A stretch of DNA of 64,000 bases from a virus, in the IMG/VR virus record IMGVR_UViG_3300027902_000008, positions 28,941 through 92,940 of that record; one strand, written 5' to 3'. The notes under the pieces are model-generated. The model had not been told where the DNA came from. It searched no databases and saw nothing but the letters and a program-made list of their open reading frames with translations. Below, one piece after another: positions 24,045-64,000 of this stretch (the first letter of the stretch is position 1; each line of letters starts with the position of its first letter). The translations under genes were made by a program, and so were the position numbers.

Positions 24045-24046
24045 AT

Positions 24047-24118
24047 TGCGGGGTAGTGGAGTAGAACCACGCCTGCCTTATAAACAGGAAATCGTGAGTG
24101 CAAATTCCACCCCCGCTA
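24047..24118 (+). tRNA. degenerate tRNA, anticodon UAU (Ile, reads AUA)
   Basis: Seventy-two bases fold with canonical arm lengths: acceptor TGCGGGG/CCCCGCT (only 1-72 unpaired), D stem GTGG/CCAC, anticodon stem CCTGC/ACAGG with loop CTTATAA, and T arm GTGAG-TGCAAAT-TCCAC. The anticodon reads TAT. Faults are a C-A pair closing the anticodon loop, an A-C pair in the T stem, an unusual T loop (TGC in place of TTC), and a 7-base D loop lacking GG. No CCA is encoded. It may be a decaying gene or a tRNA-like element. Confidence 0.65.
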
Positions 24119-24133
24119 ATGTAAAGGAAAATA

Positions 24134-25860: not shown

Positions 25861-26130
25861 ATGGAAAAGAAACTGATAAAGTTATGTCCAGTTTGTCAAA
25901 AATACTTTTATGCAAATATGCCACATTGGGCAAAGTCTGGTAAATGCAAAGAACCAGATAAACTTATGGAAGACTTTAGAAAACAAAATGACATACCTCC
26001 ATATGAAGTATGGCATTTTTCTTATCATACTGAGAATCATTACTGGTTTCCTCAGTATGACCAAGAAGCAACACAAAGAAACTTTATGAAGATGGTTTAC
26101 AATAAATTATTTTTGGAAGGGATAATTTGA
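25861..26130 (+). CDS. small zinc-finger-like protein
   Basis: An 89-residue protein with CPVCQKYF then HWAKSGKC, a CX2C...HX6C zinc pattern, and an aromatic C-terminal half. Its stop abuts the structured non-coding region. Confidence 0.6.
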   Translation: MEKKLIKLCPVCQKYFYANMPHWAKSGKCKEPDKLMEDFRKQNDIPPYEVWHFSYHTENHYWFPQYDQEATQRNFMKMVYNKLFLEGII

Positions 26131-26334
26131 CCCAGAGAAATAAAGACAAGCCTGTGGTTCCCACTACAGAAGAAAGTGGCGTTAAAATTGGGGATTGAGA
26201 TAACTCTGCCCAATCCGTTTTTCAATGTGAGACTGTTCCCAATTACTGAAGGTCTCAAGGACGGTAAACGGCTTAACACGAATCCGTCAGCAGGTTTTCT
26301 CTGGGAAAGTAAATAACTAAAAATGATTATTTAC
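26131..26334 (+). ncRNA. candidate structured non-coding RNA with pseudoknot
   Basis: CCCAGAGAAA (26131-26140) pairs perfectly with TTTCTCTGGG (26296-26305), enclosing several helices: CCACT/AGTGG (26161/26175), ATTGGG/CCCAAT (26187/26209) with inner GAG/CTC, CCGTTT/AAACGG (26215/26266) and TGAGAC/GTCTCA (26228/26252). GACGG (26260-26264) can pair with CCGTC (26284-26288) across the CCGTTT helix, forming a pseudoknot. A further 8-bp hairpin GTAAATAA/TTATTTAC lies at 26309-26334. It is less AT-rich than its surroundings and has no convincing gene; a TTG frame of 23 codons from 26127 is weak. No known class was recognised. Confidence 0.65.
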
Positions 26335-26361: not shown

Positions 26362-26532
26362 ATGATTAAGATGATTATTGGAATTTTATTATTCGGTATA
26401 ACTACGATTATTCCAATTTATATTACAAGTGATGATTTTCACTGCTGGGGTAAAGAGGAGTGGTTGCTGGTTTTACTTATTTTAGCTATCAACCTTTACT
26501 TCTTATTGGCTGGTTGGTTAGTATGGAGATAA
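26362..26532 (+). CDS. small two-helix membrane protein
   Basis: A 56-residue frame with two hydrophobic segments (MIIGILLFGITTIIPIYI and LLVLLILAINLYFLLAGW) separated by a short charged loop. It is holin-like in size and topology, but no lysis cassette surrounds it. AGGAAGA lies upstream. Confidence 0.5.
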   Translation: MIKMIIGILLFGITTIIPIYITSDDFHCWGKEEWLLVLLILAINLYFLLAGWLVWR

Positions 26533-27502: not shown

Positions 27503-27510
27503 TTTTTTTG

Positions 27511-27611
27511 CCTATTTTCCCATCCTATTCTTGAAGCTTGATTTAGGGGTAGAGGGGTGAGCCTTTGGTTGCGTTCAAGGCGTGGTGGGCTTGTCAGGAG
27601 GCAAAAATAGG
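27511..27611 (+). other. G-rich non-coding element bounded by an inverted repeat
   Basis: CCTATTTT (27511-27518) is complementary to AAAATAGG (27604-27611). The 85 bases between are unusually G-rich for this genome (GGGGTAGAGGGGTGAG, GGCGTGGTGGGC) and allow an inner AGCC/GGCT helix. The whole 160-base gap holds no gene until the peptide at 27667. A structured RNA or control region is possible. Confidence 0.4.
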
Positions 27612-27666
27612 GCTAAAAGGGGTGGTAAGGCAAGTTTTGGGGATTTTAAGCTGAAAGGAGGTGAAG

Positions 27667-27723
27667 ATGTCTCACGATAAGAATAAGGGCAAAAAAGACA
27701 AGGGTAAGAAGAAAAAGAAGTAA
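27667..27723 (+). CDS. 18-residue poly-lysine peptide
   Basis: ATG 27667 follows AAAGGAGGTGAAG, one of the best ribosome sites in the window. The frame encodes MSHDKNKGKKDKGKKKKK, then stops. A peptide this basic could bind RNA or DNA. Its shortness leaves doubt. Confidence 0.4.
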   Translation: MSHDKNKGKKDKGKKKKK

Positions 27724-28545: not shown

Positions 28546-28731
28546 ATGTTGCTGACCGTAACCGAAGTGGCTAAGTTATTAAGGCTTGATAGACAAACTA
28601 TCTACAGGAAGGTTAAGGATGGCTTGATACCACATACCAGAATTGGTAGTAGTATTAGGTTTGATAGCGAGGCTATTGACAGATGGATGCTTAATCAATC
28701 TATGGCTTTTAATAAAAAAGGAGTGATTTGA
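28546..28731 (+). CDS. excisionase-type helix-turn-helix protein
   Basis: ATG 28546 lies eight bases after AGGAGG. The 61-residue protein is a single HTH_17 domain: LLTVTEVAKLLRLDRQTIYRKV then GLIPHTRIGSSIRFD and a terminal helix AIDRWML. Such proteins are DNA-binding excisionases or regulators. It opens the ParB/radical-SAM/sugar block and may control it. No integrase is visible nearby. Confidence 0.8.
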   Translation: MLLTVTEVAKLLRLDRQTIYRKVKDGLIPHTRIGSSIRFDSEAIDRWMLNQSMAFNKKGVI

Positions 28732-29417
28732 TGGAGATAAAGCAATTTGAAACCATAGAGCTTGACATCAAGGATATTAAGAGACCATTAAAGAATCCTA
28801 ATAAGATGTCAGACTTTATGTTTATGTCTTTGGTGGAAGGTATCAAAAAAGATGGGTTTATCTATCCTTTGATACTTCGCAAGGAAGACAGCAGGATAAT
28901 TGATGGAGACCATAGGTATTTGGCTGCTATTGAAGCAGGATTAAGCAAGGTTAAATGTATCTTGCTTGATGTAACCGAAGAAGAATCCATAAAGATAGGT
29001 ATAGGTCTTAACCAAAAGAAAGGATATTTTGATTACGTTGAATTAAGAGACATCCTTACTGAAATGGAAGATAAAGACTTACCTGCTCTTTCATTGGATA
29101 CAGGTTTTACTGAAATAGAACTTCAAAGGTTGCTTGAACAAAGCACCTTTGATAATGATAAACTAATAAAACAAAAACTTGCAGAGATAGGGATACCTAC
29201 GGATAAGATAGATGCTATGGCTGATGTTTATAAGACTGGAAACTTCCAAGAACTGCCAAAATCAGACCTAAAGGGCAATCAGGAAGGAATAAGGTATCCT
29301 TTAATCTTTTTTGTTGACTCTGAAGAATCTTATAACTTTCTAAAAGACTTTTTCAAGAAAGAAGGAAGCAAAGAACCAGATACCAATAAATTGATGGAAA
29401 TGGTAAAAAATGCCTGA
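28731..29417 (+). CDS. ParB-like nuclease-domain protein
   Basis: ATG 28731 overlaps the previous TGA. The 228-residue protein has ParB N-terminal features: ELDIKDIKRPLKNPNKM, GIKKDGFIYPLILRK and the phosphate-binding IIDGDHRYLAA at about residues 60-70. The ParB fold binds CTP in partition proteins, but many phage versions are linked to DNA modification or nuclease roles. The C-terminal half is unfamiliar. It overlaps the radical-SAM gene by 8 bases, suggesting they act together. Confidence 0.8.
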   Translation: MEIKQFETIELDIKDIKRPLKNPNKMSDFMFMSLVEGIKKDGFIYPLILRKEDSRIIDGDHRYLAAIEAGLSKVKCILLDVTEEESIKIGIGLNQKKGYFDYVELRDILTEMEDKDLPALSLDTGFTEIELQRLLEQSTFDNDKLIKQKLAEIGIPTDKIDAMADVYKTGNFQELPKSDLKGNQEGIRYPLIFFVDSEESYNFLKDFFKKEGSKEPDTNKLMEMVKNA

Positions 29418-30711
29418 ACTTGAAGCAAAGAATTACCAATCTCCAAGGGCATCTTATGAGTATATGGACTGTGCTTTGCCATTGACCTTTGACCAATACT
29501 CCATCTGCTCATATAATTGTCTTTACTGCTTTGCCTTTTATCAGAGGGCTATGAATGCTCAAAGTGCAGAAGACTTCTGGAAAAGGAAAGTTTATGCCGT
29601 AGATGTTGAGTGGTTAAAGTCAATTTTCAAAGGTGAAGAAACAGATAAGGGATATCCCAAAAAGATAAAGGCAATGATAGACCAAGGCATTCCTCTTCAT
29701 TGGGGTGGCTTATCAGACCCAGCTGATGAATATGAAAAGAAATTTAAAGTAGGCTATGAGTTAATAAAATTCCTCAAAGAAATAAATTATCCCACCTTAT
29801 TCTCCATAAAAGGAGATGCTTTCCTGCTACCTGAATACCAAGAGATTTTTAAGGGTAGCAAAAACTTCAAATTCCAATTAAGCATCATTTCAGCAGATGA
29901 CAAGTTAGCACCCAAGATAGAACAGGGCGTTCCTATACCTACCAGAAGGCTGGAAGTGATGAAGTCCTTGAATGATTTGGGATGCGAGGTGATACTACGC
30001 CTGAGACCTTTCATTATAGGCTTCTCTGATAAGACAGTAGAAGAGTTAATGGTAAAGTCAAAAGAAGCAGGTGCTTCCGCAGTAAGCCTTGAGTTCTTCT
30101 GTTTGGAAAGTCGTGCTGCTGGATACTTAAAAAAGCGTTATGAACAGATGAATGAAGTCTTGGGATTTAACGTATATGACTATTACAAGTATCTAAGCAG
30201 GGGTAGTATGGGAGGATATAGAAGGCTTAACCCATATACCAAAGCAACCCACGTTGAGAAAGTGTATAAGTTAGCAAGAAAGTTAGGTATGAGGTTTGCC
30301 TGTAGCGATGCCCACTTTAAAGAACTTAATGATACGGGTTGTTGTTGTGGACTTGATAACTCTTGGAACTGGACAAGAGGTCAATTTACCAATGCCCTGA
30401 TAATAGCGAGGAAGTGCGGTCAGGTCTGTTGGAAGGATATAGAGAAAGATACTGAATGGGAAAGGTTATGGAGATTCTCTGAGGTAAGGAACTGCGGAGA
30501 CTGGAAAAGATACAGAAGGCATAAGTTATGGGATTGCCGAATAGCCAAGAAGAATATCTGGAATGACCCTAATGATATAAACTCTCCCTATAGATATTTT
30601 GAAGGCAGGATGTTGCCTGATAAGTTAGATGAGGATGGAAATGTAATATACAAATATTCAAAGTTTAGTTTAGAAGACCAAATAACCGATGAAAATAGCA
30701 TTACCAAGTAG
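29410..30711 (+). CDS. radical SAM enzyme
   Basis: The 433-residue protein carries CSYNCLYC (C33, C37, C40), the CX3CX2C ligand set for a [4Fe-4S] cluster, and TIM-barrel-like strands later (HWGGLSDPADEYE, FQLSIISADD, VILRLRPFI). It resembles spore photoproduct lyase-type radical SAM proteins. A second Cys group (DTGCCCGLDNSW) near residue 315 could hold another cluster or zinc. It is coupled to the ParB-like gene and precedes glycosyltransferases, so a role in modifying a base or a sugar is a reasonable hypothesis. Confidence 0.75.
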   Translation: MPELEAKNYQSPRASYEYMDCALPLTFDQYSICSYNCLYCFAFYQRAMNAQSAEDFWKRKVYAVDVEWLKSIFKGEETDKGYPKKIKAMIDQGIPLHWGGLSDPADEYEKKFKVGYELIKFLKEINYPTLFSIKGDAFLLPEYQEIFKGSKNFKFQLSIISADDKLAPKIEQGVPIPTRRLEVMKSLNDLGCEVILRLRPFIIGFSDKTVEELMVKSKEAGASAVSLEFFCLESRAAGYLKKRYEQMNEVLGFNVYDYYKYLSRGSMGGYRRLNPYTKATHVEKVYKLARKLGMRFACSDAHFKELNDTGCCCGLDNSWNWTRGQFTNALIIARKCGQVCWKDIEKDTEWERLWRFSEVRNCGDWKRYRRHKLWDCRIAKKNIWNDPNDINSPYRYFEGRMLPDKLDEDGNVIYKYSKFSLEDQITDENSITK

Positions 30712-31522
30712 AGGTAGAGTTAATTTTCCTGCTACATCATTTCTGCAAAGCGTAGCACAAGATGTCTATGTCTTTGTAGACCCGCCAGATACCCTCGCAT
30801 ATTCCCAAGCTAAGTTAAGTTTCAACATAGTAGATGTCCACGAAGTGAAAGGTCTTTATTATGTGATGAACTACATCCTCAATTTTATGCAATACACTTG
30901 TGATAAAGTTATGATTATAGATGATGATGTTCAGGGTATATACGTAAGACAAGGATTAACTAAAGGAGGATATCCAAAACTTGTAAAATTAAACGACCTT
31001 CAACCAATGTTTTGCGATGTGGAAAAGATAATGAATGATTTTGATTTGGCTATCTTACACCTACATCAAAACCATTATAACTGGATGAACTTAGAGCTTG
31101 AGTTAGGTAAGGTAGGAGGATACCACGTAACCTTTGTTGATAATAAGAAAATAGCCAAAATAAGATATGATGAAAGTCTCAAACTAAGAAGTGATACAGA
31201 CTTCTATATCCAGATGTGTAAGGCTGGATTAAGAATGGCTACTTATTATAAATATGCCTATGTGTCTGATTCTCTTAAAGTAGATAAGCAAGGTGGATGT
31301 TTGGCTGATAAAGATACCATAGAGAAGACTAAAGATTATTCCCAAGCAGTAGTTGACAAATGGAAAAACCCTTATATTAGAATAAAGCAGGATAAGCATA
31401 CAGGAAGATGGGGAGTAATTGTAAATTGGAGAAAGCTGTATCCTGAACCTTTTTGGGAAAGGTATGGAGAATATGCGTGTAGTAATACCAAGCAAAGCAA
31501 GACCAAAATTTCCTTCATCTAA
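30689..31522 (+). CDS. glycosyltransferase resembling the TET/JBP-associated family
   Basis: A 277-residue protein starting IALPSRGRV, with MIIDDDVQG at residues 75-83 as the metal-binding DDD of a GT-A fold, and a late QMCKAGLRM helix. The IPSRGR start and DDD pattern match what I know of TET/JBP-associated glycosyltransferases, some of which act on modified DNA bases in phages. The next gene is a shorter paralogue. It overlaps the radical-SAM gene by 23 bases. Confidence 0.6.
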   Translation: MKIALPSRGRVNFPATSFLQSVAQDVYVFVDPPDTLAYSQAKLSFNIVDVHEVKGLYYVMNYILNFMQYTCDKVMIIDDDVQGIYVRQGLTKGGYPKLVKLNDLQPMFCDVEKIMNDFDLAILHLHQNHYNWMNLELELGKVGGYHVTFVDNKKIAKIRYDESLKLRSDTDFYIQMCKAGLRMATYYKYAYVSDSLKVDKQGGCLADKDTIEKTKDYSQAVVDKWKNPYIRIKQDKHTGRWGVIVNWRKLYPEPFWERYGEYACSNTKQSKTKISFI

Positions 31523-52238: not shown

Positions 52239-53870
52239 ATGTCATTACCAGTTTCAGTATTACAGGCAATAGCAAACGGAGATTTTAATAAACTTGTAGA
52301 GTTAATTAACGCTGGGCTTGTTCCTGAGCCTACAGACCACTCACAAAATACAGATACAGGAACTAATAAGAATGATTTTGCTGTTGGTGATGGTGTAGGC
52401 ACTTCCCATAAAAGCCTTACCGTTAATAATGGTGCTACCAATAAGCCACAGATGAGATACAATAAAGATACTCACAGATGGCAGTATACAAATGATGGGT
52501 TATCTTATTTTGACGTAGGAGTAGGTAGTGCTTCGGGATACAGCGGATATAGTGGTTTTTCTGGTTATTCAGGATTTTCTGGTTTTTCTGGATACAGCGG
52601 ATTTTCAGGAGAACAAGGTAATAGCGGTTTCAGTGGTTGTTCGGGAGAAAAAGGCTTCTCAGGATATTCTGGTTATTCGGGAGACCAAGGTAATTCAGGC
52701 TATAGTGGTTCTGTAGGCAATAGCGGTTTCTCAGGTTATAGTGGATTTTCAGGACAAGATGGAACTTCTGGATATTCAGGTCAAGATGGAATAAGCGGTT
52801 ATTCAGGATTTGATGGTTCAAGCGGATTCTCAGGTCAGGATGGATTAAGCGGATACTCAGGATATAGCGGATATTCTGGTGATGCTCCTGGCACTTCAGG
52901 ATTCTCAGGTTATAGTGGTTATAGTGGCTATGTCGGAGATAGCGGATTTAGTGGATATAGTGGATATGTAGGAGACAGCGGTTATAGTGGTTTTTCAGGA
53001 GATTCAGGTTATAGCGGTTACGTAGGTGATTCAGGATTTTCTGGCTATTCAGGATATGAAGGAACTTCTGGTTATTCTGGATATTCAGGAGATTCTGGAT
53101 TTGTAGGAATATCAGGTTTCTCAGGATATAGTGGAACATCTGGAGACCCAGGAGGAGATTCTGGTTACTCAGGTTATTCTGGACAAGACGGTTTATCAGG
53201 ATATTCTGGTTTCTCTGGGCAAGATGGTTATTCAGGGTTTGATGGACTATCAGGATACTCTGGATTTTCAGGCATAGATGGATATTCGGGATTTGATGGT
53301 TTGTCAGGCTATTCTGGATTTTCTGGACAAAATGGATTATCAGGATATTCAGGCTTTTCGGGACAAGATGGTTTATCTGGATATTCAGGATTTAGCGGAC
53401 AAAATGGGTTATCTGGATACTCTGGATATTCAGGAAAATCAGGTTATAGTGGCTACTCAGGCTACTCAGGATATTCAGGATATTCAGGTTACTCTGGGTA
53501 TAGTGGCTATTCAGGATATAGTGGCTACAGCGGATATTCAGGATACAGTGGTTACTCAGGATACAGCGGTTATTCAGGGTTTAGTGGATTAGATTTCCCT
53601 AAGACATATAATTATGTTGACAAGACAGGAGATTATGTTGCTACAACTGCTGATGATGTGATAGGTTGTCTTGGAGACCTTGCGATAACTCTTTATACTG
53701 CTGTAGGACACAAAGGGAGATGGCTTTCCATTAAAAATAAAGGAACTGGAACTACCACAATAACTCCCAATGGTGCAGAGACTATAGATGGTGCTCCAAC
53801 ATTTGCACTATCTCAATGGGATTACATCACTGTTATAAGTGATGGAGCAAATTGGTTAATTATAAATTAA
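52239..53870 (+). CDS. collagen-like Gly-X-Ser repeat fibre protein
   Basis: The 543-residue protein starts after AAAGGAGG. Residues 1-98 are a non-repetitive head. Then come about 117 Gly-X-Y triplets, mostly GYS and GFS with GQD, GEQ, GDS and GNS, with only a few prolines. Residues 455-543 form a beta-rich C-terminal domain (YVATTADDVIGCLGD, HKGRWLSIKNKG) typical of phage fibre trimerisation tips. It is likely a trimeric virion fibre. Near-pure Gly-X-Ser is unusual for collagen. Confidence 0.75.
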   Translation: MSLPVSVLQAIANGDFNKLVELINAGLVPEPTDHSQNTDTGTNKNDFAVGDGVGTSHKSLTVNNGATNKPQMRYNKDTHRWQYTNDGLSYFDVGVGSASGYSGYSGFSGYSGFSGFSGYSGFSGEQGNSGFSGCSGEKGFSGYSGYSGDQGNSGYSGSVGNSGFSGYSGFSGQDGTSGYSGQDGISGYSGFDGSSGFSGQDGLSGYSGYSGYSGDAPGTSGFSGYSGYSGYVGDSGFSGYSGYVGDSGYSGFSGDSGYSGYVGDSGFSGYSGYEGTSGYSGYSGDSGFVGISGFSGYSGTSGDPGGDSGYSGYSGQDGLSGYSGFSGQDGYSGFDGLSGYSGFSGIDGYSGFDGLSGYSGFSGQNGLSGYSGFSGQDGLSGYSGFSGQNGLSGYSGYSGKSGYSGYSGYSGYSGYSGYSGYSGYSGYSGYSGYSGYSGYSGYSGYSGFSGLDFPKTYNYVDKTGDYVATTADDVIGCLGDLAITLYTAVGHKGRWLSIKNKGTGTTTITPNGAETIDGAPTFALSQWDYITVISDGANWLIIN

Positions 53871-60890: not shown

Positions 60891-60895
60891 GTCTG

Positions 60896-63800
60896 ATGGA
60901 AGTTGATTTAAAAATAAACTTAGATGTTTCTGCTGTAAACATAAACCTTGATAAGCAAGTTACTAAGGTTGATTTTGTTGAGAAGGATATAACTATAAAC
61001 TTAGATAAACCATCTATGGAAATAGGTGGTAAGCCAGTAGATATATCTATAGAATTTGGTTCTGTGATAGGTCTTGGTTTATCTGGGTTCTCTGGTTATA
61101 GCGGTGATAATCCTGGTTCATCTGGTTATTCTGGTTACAGCGGAATATCTGGATACTCAGGTTATTCAGGATATGGCTTGCAAGGATTAAGCGGTTATTC
61201 TGGCTACAGTGGTGAAAATCCAGGAGCATCTGGATATAGTGGTAAATCTGGTATGTCAGGGTATAGCGGATACTCAGGCAAAAGCGGATTTTCAGGATAT
61301 TCTGGTATATCAGGAGATTCAGGGTTGTCGGGATTTTCAGGATACTCTGGAAAATCTGGTATGTCAGGTGTTATAGGATATTCAGGTTTATCAGGTAGAA
61401 GTGGTTATTCTGGTATATCTGGATATTCAGGATATTCTGGCAGAATTGGAGATTCAGGCTTTAGTGGTTATTCAGGTATCTCTGGGTATAGCGGTCTTAG
61501 GGGTTATTCGGGATATTCTGGAAGAGTAGGATATTCTGGTTGGTCAGGTCTTAGCGGATATTCAGGTCAATCTGGATTAGGTCTATCTGGGTATTCTGGA
61601 TATTCAGGTGAACAGGGAACTTCTGGATATTCAGGAACGATTGGTGCAAGCGGTTATTCTGGTTATTCGGGATTTTCTGGAAGAAGTGGTTACTCAGGGA
61701 AAAGCGGTTTCTCTGGTTACAGTGGTTTCTCTGGTCTTGGATTGTCTGGTTTATCAGGTTATTCAGGAAATTTGGGGACTTCGGGAATTTCTGGATATTC
61801 GGGATATAGTGGATATTCAAGTCATTCAGGATATAGTGGTAAATCGGGGTTTAGTGGTAAATCGGGTTATAGCGGTATATCTGGATTTTCTGGATATGCA
61901 GGAGCACAAGGAGAATCAGGTTTTGTTGGCTTGTCAGGTATGAGTGGCTATTCAGGATATAGCAGTTATTCAGGTTTAAGCGGATACTCTGGTTATAGCA
62001 GTTATTCGGGGCTAAGTGGATACTCAGGCTATAGTGGTTCAAGTGGAGATATGGGATTTCCAGGATTGTCTGGATATAGTGGCATAAGTGGTTATTCTGG
62101 CATTAGCGGATATTCAGGTATGTCAGGATTTAGTGGTAAAAGTGGATTCTCTGGATATAGTAGTTTCTCAGGCATATCTGGTTATTCGGGATTTAGTGGA
62201 ATATCAGGTTATAGCGGAGAATTAGGAACTTCTGGTTACAGCGGACTTTCAGGAATTAGCGGATATTCTGGCGATAGTGGCATATCTGGATATAGTGGAA
62301 TGTCAGGATATAGTGGATTCTCAGGATATTCAGGTGAGAAGGGAGAAAGTGGATATAGTGGGATATCAGGCTTTAGCGGTTTCTCAGGATACTCTGGCTT
62401 TAGCGGTCAAGATGGTTCTATTGGTAATTCTGGTTATAGCGGTTATTCTGGTTTTTCGGGATTGAGTGGATATTCAGGTTACAGCGGAGATAGCGGTATT
62501 TCTGGCTTTAGTGGTTATAGTGGTATTTCAGGGTTTAGTGGGGAATCAGGTTTTAGTGGGTTTTCAGGATACTCAAGTTATAGCGGTTATTCAGGATATA
62601 GCGGATTTTCTGGTATGTCAGGCGATAGCGGTTATAGTGGAGTAAGCGGTTATAGTAGTTATTCTGGATTTTCAGGCATAAGTGGCTATTCTGGATATAG
62701 CGGTTATAGTGGAGATAGTGGAATAAGCGGATACTCAGGGTATTCGGGGATTTCGGGTTATAGTGGTTTTTCAGGTATAAGTGGATATAGCGGTGAATCT
62801 GGATTGAGTGGATATTCAGGCTTATCTGGATATTCAGGTTTTAGTGGATATAGTGGCTTTTCGGGATTGTCTGGTTATTCAGGTGAATCAGGTTTCTCAG
62901 GAGAGAAAGGCGATAGTGGATACTCAGGTTATAGTGGCTATAGTGGTAATTCTGGTTTTAGCGGTTATTCAGGGTTTAGCGGAATAAGTGGGTATAGTGG
63001 TTATTCAGGTTTCAGTGGTGATTCGGGAATAAGCGGTTTTTCTGGATATAGTGGAATAAGTGGCTATTCAGGATATAGCGGAGATTCTGGTATTTCTGGA
63101 TACAGCGGTGTTTCAGGTTATTCAGGATATAGCGGTTATAGTGGAACATCAGGCTTTAGCGGAATATCAGGATATTCAGGTTACTCTGGAGATAGCGGTA
63201 TATCAGGGTATTCTGGATTCAGCGGGATTAGTGGATATAGTGGTTATTCTGGCGTTAGTGGTTTTAGTGGAATGTCAGGATTTAGTGGATTTAGCGGTAT
63301 TTCTGGCTACTCAGGTTTTAGTGGGTATTCTGGTTTTAGTGGAGAATCAGGATATTCAGGATTTTCTGGTATAAGTGGATTCTCTGGATATTCAGGTGTT
63401 TCAGGATATAGTGGGCTTAGTGGTTATTCTGGTTATAGTGGCACATCAGGATACTCAGGAGATTCTGGAATAAGCGGATTTTCAGGCATAAGTGGCTTTA
63501 GTGGATTTTCTGGTTTAAGCGGTTATAGCGGTTTTAGTGGTGAATCAGGGTATAGTGGCTTTTCAGGGCTATCTGGATACTCAGGTTACTCAGGCTTTAG
63601 TGGAATTAGTGGATACTCTGGTTTCTCAGGCATAAGCGGATATAGTGGTTATAGTGGTATTTCGGGGTATAGTGGCTTCAGTGGTGTTTCAGGATATAGT
63701 GGAATTTCTGGATATTCTGGAATGTCTGGGTATAGTGGATTCAGTGGGATTTTAGGATATTCAGGTTACTCAGGTATAAGTGGATACTCTGGTTATAGCG

Positions 63801-64000
63801 GAATAAGTGGTTATTCTGGAATTAGTGGATTTAGCGGATATTCAGGACTATCTGGTTACTCTGGCTTTTCAGGATATAGTGGTTTTAGTGGCATTTCAGG
63901 ATATTCAGGTTTTAGTGGGATTAGCGGTTATAGTGGATTTAGCGGAATCTCAGGATATTCTGGAATAAGTGGATATAGTGGAATAAGCGGTTATTCAGGT
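60896..64000 (+). CDS. giant collagen-like Gly-X-Ser fibre protein, 3'-truncated by window
   Basis: The frame opens at ATG 60896 after a weak site and stays open for 1035 codons to the edge. Residues 1-60 are beta-like (VDLKINLDVSAVNINLD). From about residue 63 to the end it is almost unbroken Gly-X-Ser triplets (GYS, GFS, GIS, GMS, GLS, GKS, GDS, GES, GVS) with very few Pro. Ser codons alternate among TCA, TCT, AGC, AGT and TCG, and Gly among GGA, GGT and GGC. It should form a long trimeric virion fibre. Other-frame open readings here are artefacts. Confidence 0.78.
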   Translation, partial: MEVDLKINLDVSAVNINLDKQVTKVDFVEKDITINLDKPSMEIGGKPVDISIEFGSVIGLGLSGFSGYSGDNPGSSGYSGYSGISGYSGYSGYGLQGLSGYSGYSGENPGASGYSGKSGMSGYSGYSGKSGFSGYSGISGDSGLSGFSGYSGKSGMSGVIGYSGLSGRSGYSGISGYSGYSGRIGDSGFSGYSGISGYSGLRGYSGYSGRVGYSGWSGLSGYSGQSGLGLSGYSGYSGEQGTSGYSGTIGASGYSGYSGFSGRSGYSGKSGFSGYSGFSGLGLSGLSGYSGNLGTSGISGYSGYSGYSSHSGYSGKSGFSGKSGYSGISGFSGYAGAQGESGFVGLSGMSGYSGYSSYSGLSGYSGYSSYSGLSGYSGYSGSSGDMGFPGLSGYSGISGYSGISGYSGMSGFSGKSGFSGYSSFSGISGYSGFSGISGYSGELGTSGYSGLSGISGYSGDSGISGYSGMSGYSGFSGYSGEKGESGYSGISGFSGFSGYSGFSGQDGSIGNSGYSGYSGFSGLSGYSGYSGDSGISGFSGYSGISGFSGESGFSGFSGYSSYSGYSGYSGFSGMSGDSGYSGVSGYSSYSGFSGISGYSGYSGYSGDSGISGYSGYSGISGYSGFSGISGYSGESGLSGYSGLSGYSGFSGYSGFSGLSGYSGESGFSGEKGDSGYSGYSGYSGNSGFSGYSGFSGISGYSGYSGFSGDSGISGFSGYSGISGYSGYSGDSGISGYSGVSGYSGYSGYSGTSGFSGISGYSGYSGDSGISGYSGFSGISGYSGYSGVSGFSGMSGFSGFSGISGYSGFSGYSGFSGESGYSGFSGISGFSGYSGVSGYSGLSGYSGYSGTSGYSGDSGISGFSGISGFSGFSGLSGYSGFSGESGYSGFSGLSGYSGYSGFSGISGYSGFSGISGYSGYSGISGYSGFSGVSGYSGISGYSGMSGYSGFSGILGYSGYSGISGYSGYSGISGYSGISGFSGYSGLSGYSGFSGYSGFSGISGYSGFSGISGYSGFSGISGYSGISGYSGISGYSG

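Follow-up and report, generated by a model that had tools for sequence, protein, structure and literature searches.

A GC-rich gap between two small phage genes, closed by one long stem, is a weak candidate for a structured RNA

In an uncultured tailed phage, a GC-rich element flanked by two small genes is a weak RNA candidate only. Its 10-bp closing stem (P1) and the MFE of the element as a whole are above chance, while its interior helices and its pseudoknot are not. At a probability of roughly 0.38, we favor reading it as a segment between cistrons that is left untranslated in a long co-directional phage mRNA, would act in cis, and carries one long closing stem. The rarity of P1, the MFE, the shift in G+C, the balance of G and C, and the codon usage in all six frames argue for this reading, while the chance-level interior, the number of such stems expected by chance, the lack of a homologue, and an open, protein-like frame argue against it. 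A protein gene, either small or decayed, comes close to the untranslated segment in probability, and the element may or may not be a discrete pseudoknotted RNA. The drawing of helices and pseudoknot looks convincing, yet apart from one stem it is at the level of chance.

The window, by which we mean the whole 64,000-base stretch analysed, comprises bases 28941-92940 of a 92,940-base IMG/VR virus record. The terminase of this phage shares ~ 30% identity with phages that include Gordonia phage Jumbo. A simple gene call placed 115 of the 115 called genes in the window on the + strand and left ~ 19 gaps of at least 120 bases; the gap holding the element spans 232 bases, which is long for a dense genome. 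The two neighboring proteins had no usable family in the domain and family libraries, and no sigma-70-like promoter or terminator-like site was found near the element on the + strand. Because all genes lie on the + strand and no promoter or terminator is nearby, an element acting in cis is favored over a free small RNA. Coordinates of the features are given in Table 1; the bases past 26305 and up to 26334 fall outside the paired element.

Table 1. Candidate element, its helices, the flanking genes, and possible reading frames (window coordinates)
Feature	Position	Strand	Description
Upstream gene	25861-26130	+	89 aa; CxxC motif; no family; TGA stop at 26128-26130
Candidate element	26131-26305	+	GC-rich; 175 bases; 10-bp closing stem P1
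P1 5' arm	26131-26140	+	CCCAGAGAAA; starts directly after the upstream TGA
P2 hairpin	26152-26169	+	CTGTGGT-TCCC-ACTACAG; arms 26152-26158/26163-26169; in the MFE fold
P3 hairpin	26187-26214	+	ATTGGG...CCCAAT; arms 26187-26192/26209-26214; inner GAG/CTC
P4 hairpin	26228-26257	+	TGAGAC...GTCTCA; arms 26228-26233/26252-26257
P5 hairpin	26260-26288	+	GACGG...CCGTC; arms 26260-26264/26284-26288
P1 3' arm	26296-26305	+	TTTCTCTGGG; 10 perfect pairs with the 5' arm
Possible 23-aa ORF	26127-26198	+	starts with TTG, which overlaps the upstream stop (TTGA); GGAAGGG lies before it
Possible 46-aa ORF	26176-26316	+	GTG start; part of the frame open from the upstream TGA
Downstream gene	26362-26532	+	56-aa hydrophobic protein

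The closing stem described in an earlier note on this DNA is present where that note placed it, with all 10 of its 10 pairs perfect. We compared it with dinucleotide-preserving shuffles of the 232-base gap. An inverted repeat of at least 10 bp was found in 2.6% of these shuffles, or in 1.2% when the arms had to lie at least 100 bases apart, and the MFE of the whole element had a z of -2.5 (p = 0.014). With P1 taken out, the interior folded no better than shuffles (z = -0.68, p = 0.25), and the element's number of stems of at least 5 bp was reached by 35% of shuffles. The four internal helices that the earlier note mentioned are all in place, at chance level as a set. Its pseudoknot of GACGG/CCGTC with a crossing helix fares similarly: the crossing pairing can form, and 76% of shuffles contain one or more pairs of crossing stems of this size (6 bp with 5 bp). 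P5 is crossed by CCGTTT/AAACGG (26215-26220/26266-26271) and by 26181-26185/26273-26277, so that its loop (AAACGGCTTAAC) is able to pair instead with CCGTTT (26215-26220) and GTTAA (26181-26185); P3 has an alternative pairing as well, GGATTG/CAATCC. The element holds 17 crossing combinations, a number reached by 1.4% of shuffles, although these combinations are not independent of one another. A forced nested alternative with the crossing pairing came to -51.9 kcal/mol, against an MFE of -52.7 kcal/mol. Because this alternative lies only ~ 1 kcal/mol above the minimum, the fold model has no dominant fold.

The base composition of the element is distinct, as had been claimed for it. Its G+C of 45.7% compares with 33% and 32% in the flanks and 35.7% in the whole window, and a G+C this high is seen in only 0.8% of 175-base windows, a C content this high in 1.0%. 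G and C are near-equal (24% and 22%); the phage's own tRNA is also balanced, with 19 G and 19 C. A second GC-rich gap (27503-27680), with a core G+C of ~ 50% that exceeds the element's, carries an inverted repeat of the TTTGCCTATTTT/AAAATAGGGC type and folds at chance (z = -0.57). In GC-IGR analysis, bacterial structured RNAs are sought in gaps that are long and rich in GC within compact, AT-rich genomes (PMC6429828), and the gap of the element fits that description. The pipeline of that study, however, proceeds to homologue alignments and consensus structures, whereas the element has no found homologue.

As an untranslated segment, the element would be transcribed within the long co-directional mRNA and would act in cis, without a promoter or terminator of its own. 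Its ends would pair through P1, giving a hairpin-bearing domain between the 89-aa and 56-aa genes. A ribosome terminating at the UGA (26128-26130) would cover the first bases of P1, and the domain may close only while no ribosome is completing the upstream gene; such gating of P1 by a ribosome at the adjacent UGA is suggested by anatomy alone. Once closed, the domain could shield the two halves of the message or keep them apart, for example through RNase processing or as a stability barrier. If it is a structured RNA, the element would be one more unclassified phage RNA without a known relative.

Almost equally likely is a protein gene, small or decayed, that came in recently from a genome whose codon preferences differ. 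In one version, the 46-aa ORF would be translated from GTG 26176; in the other, TTG 26127 would be the start of a 62-aa gene that is broken or +1-shifted near GGGGATTGA (26190-26198). The + strand frame that continues the 89-aa gene past its TGA is stop-free for 61 codons, up to a TAA at 26316, and the amino-acid composition of its last 46 codons ranks at the 66th percentile when compared with segments of real genes. Scores this high are reached by only 0.7% of off-frame gene segments, and an open run of at least 46 codons with so protein-like a composition turns up in 1.0% of shuffles, a case equal in strength to that for P1. GGAAGGG precedes the TTG that overlaps the upstream stop, and the 23 codons of the ORF opened there have gene-like scores; a +1 shift near 26198 would join this 23-aa ORF to the frame ending at 26316. 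A foreign origin would also account for the higher G+C. Against a gene, codon usage in the open frame after 26194 falls under the 1st percentile of real genes, and an open frame of at least 60 codons has by itself a p of 0.11. No protein homologue was found by tblastn against phages and plasmids, by IMG/VR patterns, or in Pfam and PHROGs, and PDB sequences gave a non-significant match to VEGFR1 (E 0.17). An AlphaFold model of the +1-shifted product had a pLDDT of 52, which is uninformative for a single sequence. The earlier statement that the region is non-coding is not secured: codon usage across all six frames is unlike that of the phage's genes, but a frame with protein-like residues is open to 26316. 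That note had named a confirmed protein through the whole region as grounds for refutation; an open, protein-like frame spans the region, and no protein is confirmed. Should the element be a gene remnant, it would caution that, in AT-rich phages, a gap full of stems and rich in G+C can be a small gene of foreign origin or one that has broken.

A plain spacer, or degraded DNA that carries no selected structure, is less likely. P1 would then be an inverted repeat that a long window yields by chance. The window contains 12 perfect 10-bp inverted repeats with arms 100-220 bases apart, P1 among them, and a stem as rare as P1 (p = 0.012-0.026) has a chance expectation of ~ 0.2-0.5 among 19 gaps of at least 120 bases. 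With ~ 19 such gaps in the window, one stem at this level is therefore unsurprising. On a GC-corrected sliding scale, the element lies at -2.0 sd, and at least 15 other windows lie lower. The chance-level fold of the interior and the lack of a found homologue also suit a spacer, while the strong, local shift in G+C and the length of the gap in so dense a genome speak against one.

More specific schemes have far lower probabilities. It is a long shot that the element is a new phage RNA with a single member to date, in which P1 forms directly behind the terminating ribosome and P5 switches with P6/P7, coupling upstream translation to the fate of the message and possibly allowing UGA readthrough; the P5 hairpin and the P6/P7 crossing pairing are ~ 1 kcal/mol apart. 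Somewhat more improbable still is a leaky stop, with readthrough of UGA-C (26128-26131) into a 61-codon extension, helped by the stem after the stop. The extension continues the frame of the upstream gene and stays open up to 26316, its composition is protein-like, and P1 starts at the base after the stop, but a frame of this length is not rare in shuffles (p = 0.11), its codon usage is foreign, and no relative was found. The AlphaFold model of the 151-aa readthrough product had an uninformative pLDDT of 38.

The least probable reading is an independent phage small RNA (6S-like, retron-like, or of a new class) with its own promoter, which has only size and paired ends in its favor, against the lack of an Rfam family, of a reverse transcriptase, and of a nearby + strand sigma-70-like promoter or terminator. 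In an Rfam search of the window with cmscan at gathering thresholds, only tRNA was matched; the window's sole RNA family match is a tRNA-Ile with anticodon TAT at 24046-24119. For the element itself, the best matches at a relaxed E of at most 10 were snR83 (13.6 bits, E 0.76) and the hatchet ribozyme (13.6 bits, E 6.5). The Rfam and retron model search proposed earlier thus gave no family at gathering score in the element and no msr match. The PF00078 reverse transcriptase was absent from the whole 92,940-base record, while control genomes gave matches, which extends to the entire record the remark that the window has no reverse transcriptase. We rejected a retron msr-msd: the element is like one in its ~ 175-base length and paired ends, but no msr family matches and its record has no PF00078. 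We also rejected 6S RNA, which the element resembles in length and closed ends, since no 6S covariance model matched and there is no central bubble between two long arms, as had been noted; the element consists of several separate hairpins. The parallels once drawn to retrons and 6S RNAs are accordingly unsupported. Group I and II introns, ribozymes, and riboswitches gave no Rfam score at gathering, and we rejected the intron and riboswitch readings as well. The phi29 pRNA is a paired-end phage RNA of a size similar to the element's; the element differs in having no Rfam match and in its place among small accessory genes, with the terminase gene 11 kb away. A miniature transposon (MITE) was rejected too, with no direct repeat seen by eye at the ends and a single copy in the record; the lack of a target-site duplication and of further copies speaks against it.

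Covariation, which would be the discriminating test of a discrete pseudoknotted RNA, depends on homologues, and searches for homologues of the DNA, of the RNA model, and of the translations, in which not every query was run against every set, returned none. With blastn, INPHARED phages gave short chance matches only and plasmids gave no match. Two 16-base patterns were scanned in IMG/VR, and the matched records share little beyond the word itself; exact-word scans of this kind would miss diverged homologues. The structure model matched only the element itself in 49 terminase-related records plus its own record, and in the window only the self-match had an E below 0.3. No homologue was found by blastn in 40 terminase-related records, nor did the neighboring proteins, used as bait, find syntenic relatives. 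The absence of relatives is a limit of the collections searched. With the terminase as bait, we retrieved a set of more distant phages and an identical 15-kb contig, L002 (IMG/VR, sample 3300003861). The terminase of L002 is 100% identical to that of the window, and by this sequence L002 appears to represent, in a separate record, either the same phage or a nearly identical one; it stops short of the element region.

Other regions of the window were also annotated. A Fic/DOC family protein is encoded at 22733-23203 (Pfam E 3.5e-12). The region 28728-31522 encodes a ParB-like protein, a 433-aa protein weakly matching phrog_13321, and a third protein with a glucosyltransferase-family match, to a family named beta-glucosyl-HMC-alpha-glucosyltransferase; it is possibly a DNA or surface modification cluster. 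A long, low-complexity GYSG/FSG repeat protein lies at 52239-53870, and a similar repeat may be present in the 3.1-kb window end (60891-64000), which has no called gene. Outside this phage, the P1 arms were searched in GTDB, with 84,980 species represented by a single genome each, and gave five unrelated chance matches on genome contigs that have nothing else in common. Among what was met through the P1 arms is a 185-base stretch of a Myxococcales genome (L136:6835-7019) that starts with CCCAGAGAAAG and ends with CTTTCTCTGGG. It has further complementary sequence inside these arms and looks like a hairpin or a miniature element.
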